Source: Sulfurospirillum oryzae (GTDB lineage Bacteria > Campylobacterota > Campylobacteria > Campylobacterales > Sulfurospirillaceae). From it: DNA of 64,000 nucleotides. The translations under genes were made by a program, and so were the position numbers. This document shows positions 892-52,367 of this stretch, piece after piece (positions within the stretch are counted from its first letter, which is position 1; every line of letters starts with the position of its first letter). The notes beneath the pieces are model-generated. The model did no database searches. It saw only the letters and a list, made by a program, of their open reading frames with translations, and was not told the origin of the DNA. Location of the stretch: assembly GCF_025770725.1 (NCBI RefSeq), contig NZ_JANZKZ010000001.1:186001-250000 (forward strand). Reading direction: 5' to 3'.

Positions 892-961
892 GTCCATCTC
901 CTTTCTCTGTTTACACTACAGTTATATCGGAAAATTCGTGAAAAAATAGAGAAGAGAAAGG

Positions 962-995
962 CTTACATGTAAAGAAGTTTATCTTTACATGTAAG
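962..995 (-). terminator. Hairpin made of two TTACATGTAA palindromes after the chemoreceptor gene
   Basis: Two copies of the dispersed palindrome (963-972 and 985-994) form a perfect 13-bp inverted repeat, arms 962-974 and 983-995 with an 8-base loop. It lies 9 bases after the stop of the minus-strand chemoreceptor gene. On the minus strand it is followed by a pyrimidine-rich run, as expected of a factor-independent terminator. Termination is inferred from structure and position. Confidence 0.6.
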
Positions 996-1003
996 GTCAA
1001 ATT

Positions 1004-2707
1004 TTAGCCAAGTTTACTCATGATATTTAAGATGTCACCTGTTTTTTCTTGAATCTCTTCAACATCAGCGGTTAAGGTGTTCATCTCTTTGGCATTGGTG
1101 CTCATCTTTGCAGAGCTATCAACAATACCACCCACGATAACGCCAATGGTCGCTTGAATTTGGCTCAGAGAGTGGTTGGTTTTATCGGCGAGTTCTCGAA
1201 TGTTATCGGCAACGACGGCAAAACCTCGCCCATGTTCACCCGCACGCGCGGCTTCGATAGCGGCATTAAGCGCTAAAAGATTGGTCTGATCGGCAATGTC
1301 ACCAATCATATTTAAGATGTCATTAGCCTCTTTTGCATTTTGCGTAAGCGTACTTAGTGTTTCAGCAAGATGCTGTTGAATCGAGCCCATCTCTTGCATA
1401 GAAGCTGTGGTTTTTTTAACGATACGGTTAAGATCACTCAGTGGCTCATTTTTGATGGTTGCAACAGAGCTTGCGAGTTGTTGCGAACTTTCATTGATCT
1501 TCGCACTCTGTTCTGCATTTTCTTCAATCATTTTAGCTAATGCACTGCCAAGAGCATTGACACCCTCAACCAACTCTTTAAGCTCACCATTAGTGGAGAT
1601 CATAATCGGATGACTAAAATCGCCATTTTGAAAATTTTTAAGCGATAAAAGCGTTGCTCGCATCACTTCATTCACTTTTTCAATCATCGCATCTATCTCA
1701 TACGAGAGGCGATTGGTTAAGAAGTTGGATGAAACATACGATGTTTGATTGTTCATATAACCATTGGACATTTTAGAACAGATAATCAGCACTTCGCCGA
1801 CAACGCGAATATCATCGAGTCGCAGTTTTTCAAAATCTTTAAATGTCTTATTGATAACATTGACAGTTGTGCCTATTTCATCATTTTCATGGTCACTTAA
1901 TTGATAATCTATGAGATTCTTTTTATTGGTCACATAAAGTCCAAAATCTTCCACATATTGCTTCAAATTCGCCATACGTCGACCTATAAGTTTTTGACTT
2001 AAAAAGCGTGAAATGAAAGAGAACACCACAACAACCACCAATAAAATAACGCTATTGCGAATGACCAAGGAGACTAAGGCTTCATCAATTTTTTGTTTTT
2101 CTTTGGCAACAAGAACATCAATATCATCGGCATAAACACCTGTTCCAATAATCCATCCCCACGGTTTAAAACCCTCGACAAAAGAGATTTTGGCTTGCGG
2201 TGTGTTAAAGCCTGGCTTTTCCCATAGATAATTCACAACACCTTTACCATTTTTTGAGACCACATCGACAAATTCATTAAATAAAAATTTACCCGCAGGG
2301 TCTTTAGACTTGCTCAAATCTGCACCATCAAGAGCGGGTTTAATGGGGTGCATTATCATTTTAGGAGCAAAATCGTTAATCCAGAAGTAACCATCTTCAC
2401 CAAAACGTAACTTTTTGATTGCTGTTTTTGCTTTTTCTTGATAGGCTTTTACTACCGCAGGATCGCTCTTGTCAGGATCATTTTGCAACGCTTCATAAAA
2501 AGAGTTCACAATTTGATAGGCAATCTTAACTTTATCCGTAAGTGCCTCAACTTTTTCATGGGTCATAACAGAACGAATGCCTTCTAATCTTCCTTGTGCC
2601 TCATTATTCATCAAAATAATCACAACCAAAGTTGACACAACCGCCGTTAGCACTAAAGAGACAATCAGGAGCATCGTAACTTTAAACTGAATCGTTAGCT
2701 CTTTCAT
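1004..2707 (-). CDS. Methyl-accepting chemotaxis protein with periplasmic Cache domain
   Basis: This 567-residue chemoreceptor should sit in the inner membrane and signal to CheA/CheW. A transmembrane helix (about residues 10-32) precedes a periplasmic single-Cache domain (about 45-200) containing [14 protein letters not shown] and [12 protein letters not shown], typical of Cache_2 small-ligand sensors. A second helix follows at about 215-235, then a linker and the signalling hairpin with the conserved [20 protein letters not shown] tip. There is no C-terminal CheB/CheR-binding pentapeptide. The start codon overlaps the stop of the upstream PAS gene by one base (TAATG), so the two are translationally coupled and probably act together, as CetB and CetA do in Campylobacter energy taxis. 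The ligand is unknown. Confidence 0.95.
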
Positions 2708-27340: not shown

Positions 27341-27589
27341 ATGAAAACAAGCGACATCATCAATCTTTTGCACAATGCCATTGAAGCTGAAAATATGGGA
27401 AAGAAAATTTCTCAAAAGAAGATGGCAGAAACTTTTGGAATATCCATGCGCACCTATCAAGAGTGGAGACTTGGAAGTAGCGCGCCTATGGGAATTCCAG
27501 TGGTTTTTAATATGCTTGGTATGTTAAAAGATGAAGATATTGTGCGTTTGGTACGTAAGATAAATGACGGGCAAAAAGGAACGGTATGA
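27341..27589 (+). CDS. Small helix-turn-helix protein
   Basis: The 82-residue protein contains KISQKKMAETFGISMRTYQE (about residues 23-42), a helix-turn-helix of the Cro/XRE or phage-regulator kind, followed by WRLGSSAPMGIPVVFNMLGM. No other domain is visible. The upstream region is very A/T-rich and contains an 18-bp palindrome. It overlaps the next small gene by four bases (ATGA). It could be an autoregulated repressor; function is unknown. Confidence 0.7.
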   Translation: MKTSDIINLLHNAIEAENMGKKISQKKMAETFGISMRTYQEWRLGSSAPMGIPVVFNMLGMLKDEDIVRLVRKINDGQKGTV

Positions 27590-27753
27590 CAAACTTATCC
27601 GTAAGTGAGAAATTGGCGTTAGAAGAAGTATTTGAGTGTTTAAAAGATGAGAATTGCCGTAAGATTAGTGTGATAAACAAACGTCTTTTTGTCTATCGCA
27701 TGATGCGTTTACTGGTATCGACGCGTCGAAAACTTTTACATGTAAAAAGATAA
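27586..27753 (+). CDS. Small basic protein coupled to the HTH gene
   Basis: A 55-codon frame starts at the ATG overlapping the HTH gene's stop (ATGA). The product begins MTNLSVSEKLALEEVFECLK and ends with a basic tail (RRKLLHVKR), with FVYRMMRLLVSTRR as a positively charged helix. The last codons are made by a TTACATGTAA copy (27736-27745). The tight overlap is the main evidence that it is translated. It has no recognisable family. Confidence 0.55.
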   Translation: MTNLSVSEKLALEEVFECLKDENCRKISVINKRLFVYRMMRLLVSTRRKLLHVKR

Positions 27754-27776
27754 GTTGCCCTATCCTTTACATGTAA
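27736..27776. repeat. Pair of TTACATGTAA palindromes between convergent genes
   Basis: Copies at 27736-27745 (end of the 55-codon gene) and 27767-27776 (10 bases after the stop of the minus-strand permease gene) can pair with each other across a 21-base loop. They occupy the place of a terminator for both convergent units. Confidence 0.8.
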
Positions 27777-27785
27777 GAAATGCTT

Positions 27786-29441
27786 TTAGATCGCTTTGGT
27801 GTTGTCCATCAAAACAGGGACAACAATCAAAGAAACGATCACCGCAGCAATCGTTCCAAAGATTAACGCAACACCAAGCCCCCCAAAAATAGGATCAGTC
27901 GCAAGAAGTGTACTGGCTAAGATAATCGCTGCTGCCGTCAATACAATAGGCTTCGCCCGCGTCGCACTCGCACGTGCAATCGCCTCTTTTTTCGAAACGC
28001 CTTGTTTGATCAAAGTCTGTGCAAAATCAATCAATAAAAGTGCATTTCGTGAGCTAATACCCATCAGTGAAATAAAACCAATCAATGACGTAGCTGTGAG
28101 AAAGAACGTTGTTGATGTAAACAGATCCATAATCCAATGCCCTACAATAACGCCAATGATGGAGAGGAAACTACCAAGAAGCACAATGCCAGAAAGGGCA
28201 AAGCTTTTGTAATAAACGACCATCAATAAAAAGATCAAAATAAGAGCTGCGATAAAAGCTCCGCCAAGATCACGAAATGTATCCATCGTGACTTTCATCT
28301 CACCATCCCAAGCCAGTTCAAACACCTCGCCGCTCTTTTTATCTTTGAGTGTAAGATCAAACAGGTGGCTGTTACTGACATCGAATTCACCACTCAGTGC
28401 CTCTTTGATGCGACTGCGTGCGTCTAAAAGGGGATAGACCTGAGAGACAAGGTCTGCCTCGGCGACAATGCTCACCATCTTCTGCAAATTCTTAGACATA
28501 ATTGTCGGCGAAGAGGTCACTTTCTCCACACGCACCACTTCGGAGAGCGGTACCATCATTCCTTGTGCATTTTGAAGCTGTAACGAAGAGAGTTTAGCGC
28601 GAAGCTCCTCTTTAGAAGCGTGCGCAAGTGACTTTGAAGGAGAGCTCAAAACCACATAAAGAGGAATTTGAGAAGGCGAGCTCTCGCTATTTTTATGCGC
28701 AACGTGCATGCCCTCAAAGCTTAAATACAACAACTCATTGATCTTCGCAATACTGAGCGCGGAACGCGTTACTCTCTCTTTATCGAGCACAAGGGCGTAT
28801 TTTTCATAAAGCTCATCTGCCATAATGTCCACATCAACCAAATCTTTCGTTTGCACAAGAATCTGTTTGATCTTCTCAGAAAGTACGCCAAGTTCAGCCG
28901 CATTGTTGCCATAAAGCTCCACGACCAAAGCTGCCATCGTTGGAGGTCCTGCTGGTTGTTCAACCATCTTGATCGAAGTCTGAGGAATCAATGTCTCACA
29001 GCTTTTTTGAATGAGCGGACGTAAGCGATGTACTATCGCAAAAGAGCGTTCAGGTCTTTCATGAATGCCACTTAGATTGACCACGATCTCACTCACATGC
29101 TCTCCACTTTTAAAGCCAGAACCTTTAACAAGCCCTGCATAATCAAGAGGCGAGCCCATACCATTAAACACTTCAATATTTTGAATCTCTTTCTCTTTTT
29201 GCAATATGTTAACCACACACGCATTGATGGTATTGGTCTCTTGATACGAGCTTCCGTTGGGTAAATCAACATAGACAGAGAAAGTATTTGTACTTTTACC
29301 CGGTAACATTTTGGCTAAAACGATTTTGGTCGGAAACATCATGACTGCCGCTAGAAATGCCAAAAGTGTAAAAAGCAATACCCGCCTTTTTTTACGATCT
29401 TCCACCAAGATAGAGTGAATAAACTGCTCAAATTTTTGCAT
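27786..29441 (-). CDS. RND efflux permease, C-terminal half (split gene)
   Basis: The 551-residue product corresponds to the second half of an RND pump: one helix (about residues 18-38), a large periplasmic region, then five helices. These include IALILIFLLMVVYYKSFALS, TSLIGFISLMGISSRNALLL (the TM10 equivalent of the proton path) and the last helices near GLGVALIFGTIAAVIVSLIV. It begins at the central cytoplasmic loop where full-length RND proteins join their repeats. The ATG at 29441 has a strong AAAGGAG site (29448-29454) 6 bases upstream, and it overlaps the N-half gene by 14 bases in another frame. It is probably made as a separate subunit. Confidence 0.88.
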   Translation of the reverse strand: MQKFEQFIHSILVEDRKKRRVLLFTLLAFLAAVMMFPTKIVLAKMLPGKSTNTFSVYVDLPNGSSYQETNTINACVVNILQKEKEIQNIEVFNGMGSPLDYAGLVKGSGFKSGEHVSEIVVNLSGIHERPERSFAIVHRLRPLIQKSCETLIPQTSIKMVEQPAGPPTMAALVVELYGNNAAELGVLSEKIKQILVQTKDLVDVDIMADELYEKYALVLDKERVTRSALSIAKINELLYLSFEGMHVAHKNSESSPSQIPLYVVLSSPSKSLAHASKEELRAKLSSLQLQNAQGMMVPLSEVVRVEKVTSSPTIMSKNLQKMVSIVAEADLVSQVYPLLDARSRIKEALSGEFDVSNSHLFDLTLKDKKSGEVFELAWDGEMKVTMDTFRDLGGAFIAALILIFLLMVVYYKSFALSGIVLLGSFLSIIGVIVGHWIMDLFTSTTFFLTATSLIGFISLMGISSRNALLLIDFAQTLIKQGVSKKEAIARASATRAKPIVLTAAAIILASTLLATDPIFGGLGVALIFGTIAAVIVSLIVVPVLMDNTKAI

Positions 29442-51663: not shown

Positions 51664-51711
51664 TTACATGTAAAACCTCAAAAGAAGAAAGGTGACACAC
51701 CTTACATGTAA
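51664..51711. repeat. Pair of TTACATGTAA palindromes after the response regulator gene
   Basis: Copies at 51664-51673 and 51702-51711 flank 28 bases that contain a small hairpin (AAGGTG-ACA-CACCTT, 51689-51703). They lie between the response regulator stop (51726) and the dld start, where a terminator is expected. Confidence 0.85.
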
Positions 51712-51725
51712 AGTTTAACATAGCA

Positions 51726-52367
51726 TTAATAGCGCAAAATATACCCTACATCAACAACCGTTTCAATACATTCAAAAGGAATTTTTTTTCTCAGTCTTCG
51801 CATTAAGGAGCGAATCGAATCAAGACTTGCAAAATTTCCTTCCCATACCATCGCTTGAATTTTATCAAACGAAACGACTTTACCTTTTTCGCTGATCAAA
51901 ACATTGAGCAAAAGTTTTTCTTTACGTGAAAGATGCTCCTCATCGTCATTAATACGCAACAAGCTTGTTTGAAAATCAAATTGACAACCATGTCCTAAAT
52001 CGATAATGTCATGACGAATATTACAAAGCTTTTCAATTTTTATCTCTAATTCATCAATGAAAAAAGGCTTTTTTAGAAAATCATTACAGCCATAACTGTA
52101 TGCGTCTTTGATAACTTCGAGCTCCACGCTGGAACTGATGATAATAACAGGCGTTTCATGGTAAAAATCACGCACATTTTTAAGAATTTCAATGCCATCG
52201 AGACTGGGAACATTGATATCTAAAATATAACAGCCATAGCCATTATCCATCGCGTCATACGCCTCTTTGCCATCTGTAAAAGAATCAATTATATAGCCTT
52301 TCGCTTCCAGACGTTTTGTAATGGTTGCATTCAGACGGGCATTATCTTCTAAAAGTAAAATTTTCAT
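51726..52367 (-). CDS. OmpR-family response regulator
   Basis: The 213-residue regulator has a receiver domain with phosphoacceptor Asp50 (GCYILDINVPSLDG), the acidic pair in LLLEDNARL and the Lys of LKKPFF. A C-terminal winged helix follows (HLSRKEKLLLNVLISEKGKV, SIRSLMRRLRKKIPFECIET). It overlaps the sensor kinase gene by four bases and is its evident partner. The target genes are not shown by the sequence; dld lies downstream on the same strand but is separated by palindrome repeats. Confidence 0.93.
   Translation of the reverse strand: MKILLLEDNARLNATITKRLEAKGYIIDSFTDGKEAYDAMDNGYGCYILDINVPSLDGIEILKNVRDFYHETPVIIISSSVELEVIKDAYSYGCNDFLKKPFFIDELEIKIEKLCNIRHDIIDLGHGCQFDFQTSLLRINDDEEHLSRKEKLLLNVLISEKGKVVSFDKIQAMVWEGNFASLDSIRSLMRRLRKKIPFECIETVVDVGYILRY

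Follow-up and report, generated by a model that had tools for sequence, protein, structure and literature searches.

Close pairs of an iterated palindromic word as probable intrinsic terminators in Sulfurospirillum oryzae

Close pairs of the ten-base palindrome TTACATGTAA probably act as intrinsic transcription terminators, often bidirectional, that co-opt two copies of a word iterated throughout the genome of Sulfurospirillum oryzae; we put the probability of this reading at about three in four (0.77). It draws on the spacing of the pairs, the complementarity of their arms, their placement, the T-tracts that accompany them, their conservation despite changes in the arms, and the retention of pairs where single words are missing. 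Because TTACATGTAA is its own reverse complement, two copies 18–25 bases apart give a stem of 10–12 bp in the RNA of either strand. We propose that the two transcribed words would form this stem, that selection would add pairing bases inside and outside the words together with a T-rich tract 4–11 bases past the second word, and that the T-rich bases past the stem would serve as a U-tract at which RNA polymerase is released. The stem is symmetric, so that one element could serve both genes of a convergent pair.

The 2.63-Mb genome has 1056 copies of the word, about 400 per Mb, where the reversed control has 3, and no other 10-mer is as over-represented (z about 414). Its extended consensus, CTTTACATGTAAAG, is itself palindromic, and the word is a perfect dyad. 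The window, by which we mean the whole 64,000-nucleotide stretch of DNA that was analyzed, holds 29 exact copies, and 40 sites with at most one mismatch where shuffled sequence predicts 3.7. It also holds three pairs, which are unequal: pairs 1 and 2 are conserved, while pair 3 is long-spaced and weaker.

Three hairpins in the window and their orthologues

Pair 1 (962–995, minus strand) lies 8 bases past the stop codon of a chemoreceptor gene with Pfam matches to dCache/sCache_2 and MCPsignal (1004–2707, minus strand). An earlier note on this DNA had placed a hairpin behind that gene, built from word copies at 963 and 985, and its description is exact: the words occupy 963–972 and 985–994, and the arms CTTACATGTAAAG (962–974) and CTTTACATGTAAG (983–995) are perfect reverse complements over 13 bp around an 8-base loop, AAGTTTAT. 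Folded as minus-strand RNA, the element forms 14 pairs, one of them an added G-U, with a 6-nt loop at -18.1 kcal/mol (z -7.7); the stem is poorer in G-C than usual (4 of the 14 pairs) and nonetheless stable. A T-rich tract on the transcribed strand, GCCTTTCTCTTCTCTATTTTTT (940–961, minus strand), lies past the hairpin and contains no immediate uninterrupted T-run. A simple generic terminator scan passes the site as terminator-like, with CCTTTCTCTT as its tail. The next gene on the same strand (565–897) has no Pfam match, encodes 110 aa from an ATG at 897 or 108 aa from 891, and is matched by a divergent orthologue in each of 15 congeners out of 23.

Thirteen loci, that of S. oryzae included, carry an orthologue of the chemoreceptor gene. 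Pair 1 is present as an exact pair of words at eight of these; two have one exact word with a degenerate partner, and two have nothing. In genome G011 both words are altered, to TAACATGTAA and TTACATGTTA, and the stem is still perfect. The pair 1 spacer of G008 folds no better than shuffled spacers.

Further pairs had been reported at 27736/27767 and 51664/51702, and both are present. Pair 2 (27736–27776; words at 27736–27745 and 27767–27776, spacer of 21 bases) lies between convergent genes and folds at -17.9 kcal/mol with a 1-nt bulge. On one side, 9 bases before the pair, is the stop codon of a gene for part of an RND transporter (ACR_tran by Pfam; 27786–29441, minus strand). On the other is a small ORF of 55 aa that runs from ATG to TAA and ends in KLLHVKR (27587–27753, plus strand), the C-terminal codons of which hold the first word of the pair. 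The earlier claim that such pairs always follow stop codons fails for the word at 27736; since that word falls within the last codons of the ORF on the opposite strand, the pair 2 hairpin straddles two convergent 3' ends.

Pair 2 is the most conserved of the three. Of 23 loci with an orthologue of the RND gene (that of S. oryzae included), 20 keep it as an exact pair of words in the same place, and the remaining 3 have a hairpin with poorer word content at that site. The orthologous spacers measure 16–25 bases, and their arms differ yet pair (AGC/GCT, AACG/CGTT, GAAG/CTTC, and GATAG/CTTATC). Fifteen of 18 spacers fold more than 3 kcal/mol better than the mean of their shuffled versions; those of G006 and G019 fold no better than shuffled.

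Pair 3 (51664–51711, minus strand; words at 51664–51673 and 51702–51711, spacer of 28 bases) follows a response regulator gene (Response_reg and Trans_reg_C by Pfam; 51726–52367, minus strand). Its hairpin is branched and weaker, at -14.4 kcal/mol, and among 16 orthologous loci the pair is found only in S. oryzae and its near relative G012.

Close pairs across genomes

The genome-wide scan for close pairs that the earlier note had proposed returned 35 pairs with a spacer of 0–30 bases in the S. oryzae genome, against 0 for the reversed pattern. Analysis of gene context covered 47% of this genome (1.24 Mb) and 720 kb of genome G015. Start-to-start spacing of tight TTACATGTAA pairs peaks at 20–24 bases; close pairs in the analyzed 47% of the S. 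oryzae genome cluster at 20–25 bases, and 28 of the 49 pairs listed for G015 (50 in the genome) have spacers of 8–13 bases, whereas the spacings of pairs inside genes are scattered. The bases within the spacers also tend to pair with one another, at 0.76 against 0.49 after permutation in S. oryzae (permutation p below 0.002) and at 0.71 against 0.47 for G015 spacers of 8–14 bases (p below 0.002). Compared with shuffled spacers, 46 intergenic pairs fold with a mean z of -2.9 and 19 pairs in genes with one of -1.0 (p = 3e-5); shuffling a spacer loses the word's own flank preference, for which the permuted-flank test and the in-gene pairs serve as controls. At other orthologous pairs, changes in the outer arms are matched, as in GTCT/AGAC against CTCT/AGAG and CCTT/AAGG against ATGT/ACAT, and the flanks at orthologous loci in named Sulfurospirillum records are about 74–85% identical.

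Placement and tails point the same way as spacing and arms. Pairs spaced 18–25 bases apart number 23 in convergent gaps, 12 in codirectional gaps, 1 in a divergent gap, and 5 in genes, and convergent gaps make up 0.6% of the sequence. The fraction of T reaches 47–60% at positions +4 to +9 past the second word in gene direction and is weak at individual sites. Over positions +4 to +11, pairs are followed by 3.9 T in 8 bases and single post-stop words by 2.6 (p = 2e-7), and at convergent genes the enrichment after pairs runs in both directions. The T-tract often begins a few bases late and is interrupted, and the stems are A+T-rich. In the unbiased S. oryzae sample, 5 convergent gaps contained a pair where words scattered at random with the density observed would give 2.9 ± 1.4, a difference that is not significant; the G015 sample had been chosen around pairs, and its region-level pair count was excluded. 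Spacing, arms, tails, and conservation carry the argument, and the S. oryzae convergent-gap count does not.

In the 1.24 Mb of the S. oryzae genome, two thirds of the copies of the word lie in genes and yet amount there to only 0.29 per kb; intergenic densities per kb are 6.7 in convergent gaps, 2.2 in codirectional gaps, and 1.2 in divergent gaps. Copies are most frequent 0–20 bases after stop codons. Only 6% of single post-stop words carry at least 5 extra palindromic bases, against 1.3% after permutation, and most of them are not longer hairpins. Tight pairs are a separate, shaped feature, distinct from single words.

Some stems recur. One 30-mer, TTACATGTAAGGATTTTTCCTTACATGTAA, is found without change, in one orientation or the other, at unrelated loci, in S. 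oryzae at C1:513215, C1:747650, C2:578880, C3:12792, and C3:46712 and further at L086, L094, L100 (in G015), L117, and L143, and GGA...TCC arms dominate among spacers of 10–11 bases. An origin of the recurrent GGATTTTTCC pairs in a mobile element was considered and rejected, as the sequences on either side of the 30-base element show no relation among the loci compared; judging by these sequences, the 30-mer looks like a favoured stem and not a mobile element. At L143:5350–5559, two pair hairpins lie 180 bases apart with similar flanks (agacgacta...cataagctacatcaaatctcc), suggesting local duplication of a putative terminator together with its flank. An apparent absence of other terminators at pairs (4% against about 45%) was discarded as a masking artefact: when an equivalent footprint was masked in gaps that have no pair, the value fell to the same near-zero level, and unmasked, gaps with and without pairs score about equally.

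The complete 2.6-Mb genome of G009 offers a further comparison, as it contains 49 words and four pairs where most congeners have about a thousand words. Two of its four pairs are orthologues of pairs 1 and 2 of the window. In the 20 kb compared from the syntenic stretch that separates these two, the 11 single words that the window has there are all missing, and all 7 alignable single-word sites are changed. Retention of 2 of 2 pairs against 0 of 11 singles, though a small sample, separates the function of the pairs from that of the word. The direction of this change (loss of words in G009 as opposed to gain in the others) is one that we infer.

Termination and competing explanations

From these comparative signatures we infer that RNA polymerase would stop at the pairs. 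A stable hairpin shortly past a stop codon and a U-rich tract after the stem are the features of an intrinsic terminator, and both are found here. A G+C-rich stem is usual in intrinsic terminators and is not strictly required. The same hairpins could arise with no function at all if single words simply pile up in the loosely constrained bases past stop codons. Single words are indeed dense there and in convergent gaps (6.7 against 0.29 per kb in genes), and convergent pairs in S. oryzae occur near random expectation; accumulation of this kind would, however, leave no sharp spacing peak, no complementarity of arms beyond the flanks of the words, and no excess of T past pairs over that past single words. 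Since changes in the arms also preserve pairing, and pairs survive where singles are gone, we regard such a by-product as improbable.

Another explanation accepts that the hairpins work in RNA and assigns them a role after transcription, in protecting 3' ends or stopping nuclease trimming, or else a part in Rho-dependent termination. The A+T-rich stems and the late, broken T-tracts would suit such roles, and a site just past a stop codon fits 3'-end protection equally well. The enrichment of T is nevertheless specific to the position past pairs and extends in both directions at convergent genes, and the gap between convergent genes is where terminators are needed, so that this explanation, too, appears unlikely. 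That the paired palindromes form a double site for a DNA-binding protein (a nucleoid or segregation protein, or a regulator) is very improbable. The perfect dyad with its palindromic extended consensus would be a natural protein site, and a peak at 20–24 bases sets the copies about two helical turns apart, but protein binding requires neither complementary spacers nor paired changes in the arms, and it would not account for word-poor hairpins in the same place or for a T-tract on the downstream side.

Intrinsic termination at iterated words has precedent. Paired DUS/USS words act as Rho-independent terminators in Neisseria and the Pasteurellaceae (PMC1852404, PMC3630211, PMC2397512), and the same set of signatures was described for uptake-word terminators of Neisseria (N. 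meningitidis) and the Pasteurellaceae (Kingsford et al., 2007; PMC1852404). As in the DUS/USS systems, TTACATGTAA is iterated about a thousand-fold across the genome, its close pairs form hairpins with T-tails that lie mostly between convergent genes, and many copies lie outside the putative terminators; the enrichment of hairpin-spaced pairs between convergent genes holds with the qualification that the S. oryzae count alone is not significant. Unlike DUS/USS, TTACATGTAA is A+T-rich and palindromic, so that the orientation of a copy is irrelevant, it supplies no T-tail itself, it occurs in a different phylum, and its uptake role is that of a candidate. It is also unrelated to the known uptake words GCCGTCTGAA and AAGTGCGGT (as given in PMC1852404), as the earlier note had supposed. 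The note's comparison with paired uptake words is well chosen, and the comparative signatures support the proposed terminator role, with the reservation that the three window pairs are unequal and pair 3 is weak. Canonical intrinsic terminators share with the pairs a stem-loop just past a stop codon and T-rich sequence after it, and differ in that here one A+T-rich word provides the stem at many loci and the T-tract begins about 3 bases past the second word. The kind of element is already known, and what is new is most likely its construction from a palindromic word in Campylobacterota. If the terminator reading is true, a lineage other than Neisseria and the Pasteurellaceae has independently come to build terminators from an iterated word.

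The single word and its possible role

The terminator role of the pairs and the main role of the single words are separate questions. TTACATGTAA is confined to its own family: it is present in all 23 congeners examined (49–1496 copies each) and in other genera of the family (6–733 copies), and reaches 0–6 copies in 16 other families of the order. Where relatives with TTACATGTAA pairs are named, they belong mostly to Sulfurospirillum and Sulfurospirillaceae. In cyanobacteria, HIP1 and other highly iterated palindromes occur at hundreds to thousands of copies per Mb (PMC4390886), and TTACATGTAA resembles HIP1 in being a short, lineage-specific palindrome at hundreds of copies per Mb, sometimes with a conserved palindromic extension and rare in some members of the lineage. 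The HIP1 sequence is GCGATCGC, of which TTACATGTAA is not a derivative, and a text search of the HIP1 paper found no mention of termination (PMC4390886).

Tentatively, TTACATGTAA may be a palindromic uptake (self-recognition) word of Sulfurospirillaceae, which would be the first reported in Campylobacterota, with paired terminators persisting as fossils once a species no longer uses the word, as in G009; we consider this possible, if somewhat doubtful. Of 44 genomes of the family, 41 have ComEC and 42 a platform gene of T2SS/T4P type, in both cases regardless of word number, and among these 44 genomes the copy number of TTACATGTAA follows neither gene. A search of the S. oryzae genome found no small ComEA-type protein, the HHH_3 matches falling in frames of 730 and 434 aa; G015 has one such small protein. 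We found no paper on TTACATGTAA or on a Sulfurospirillum uptake word in the open-access literature, and the word is an obvious starting point in the search for a self-recognition signal among bacteria for which the literature searched reports none. Congeners with 49 to 1496 copies form a natural series in which to ask which copies stay when the main role of a word fades. The low-copy genomes G042 (L105–L108) and G009 (L247–L266) are good outgroups for gain and loss of the word, and no comparable replacement word was found in 80 kb of the former or 400 kb of the latter.

Several minor observations concern the word itself. In genes, genome-wide and at 27736–27745 in the window, it is mostly read as Leu-His-Val (227 copies) or with Thr-Cys (103), and in 12 cases a gene takes its TAA stop codon from the word. 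A Prevotellaceae MAG (L112, L187) carries the same 10-mer within the 21-base unit of a tandem array (TTACATGTAACGGAAGATTGG), which looks unrelated to the Sulfurospirillum pairs. Outside the window, a stretch of 29.8 kb (G000:C1:12248–42026) is without any copy of TTACATGTAA and has a G+C content of 34.8% against 38.9% for its contig; it is probably a recently acquired island.
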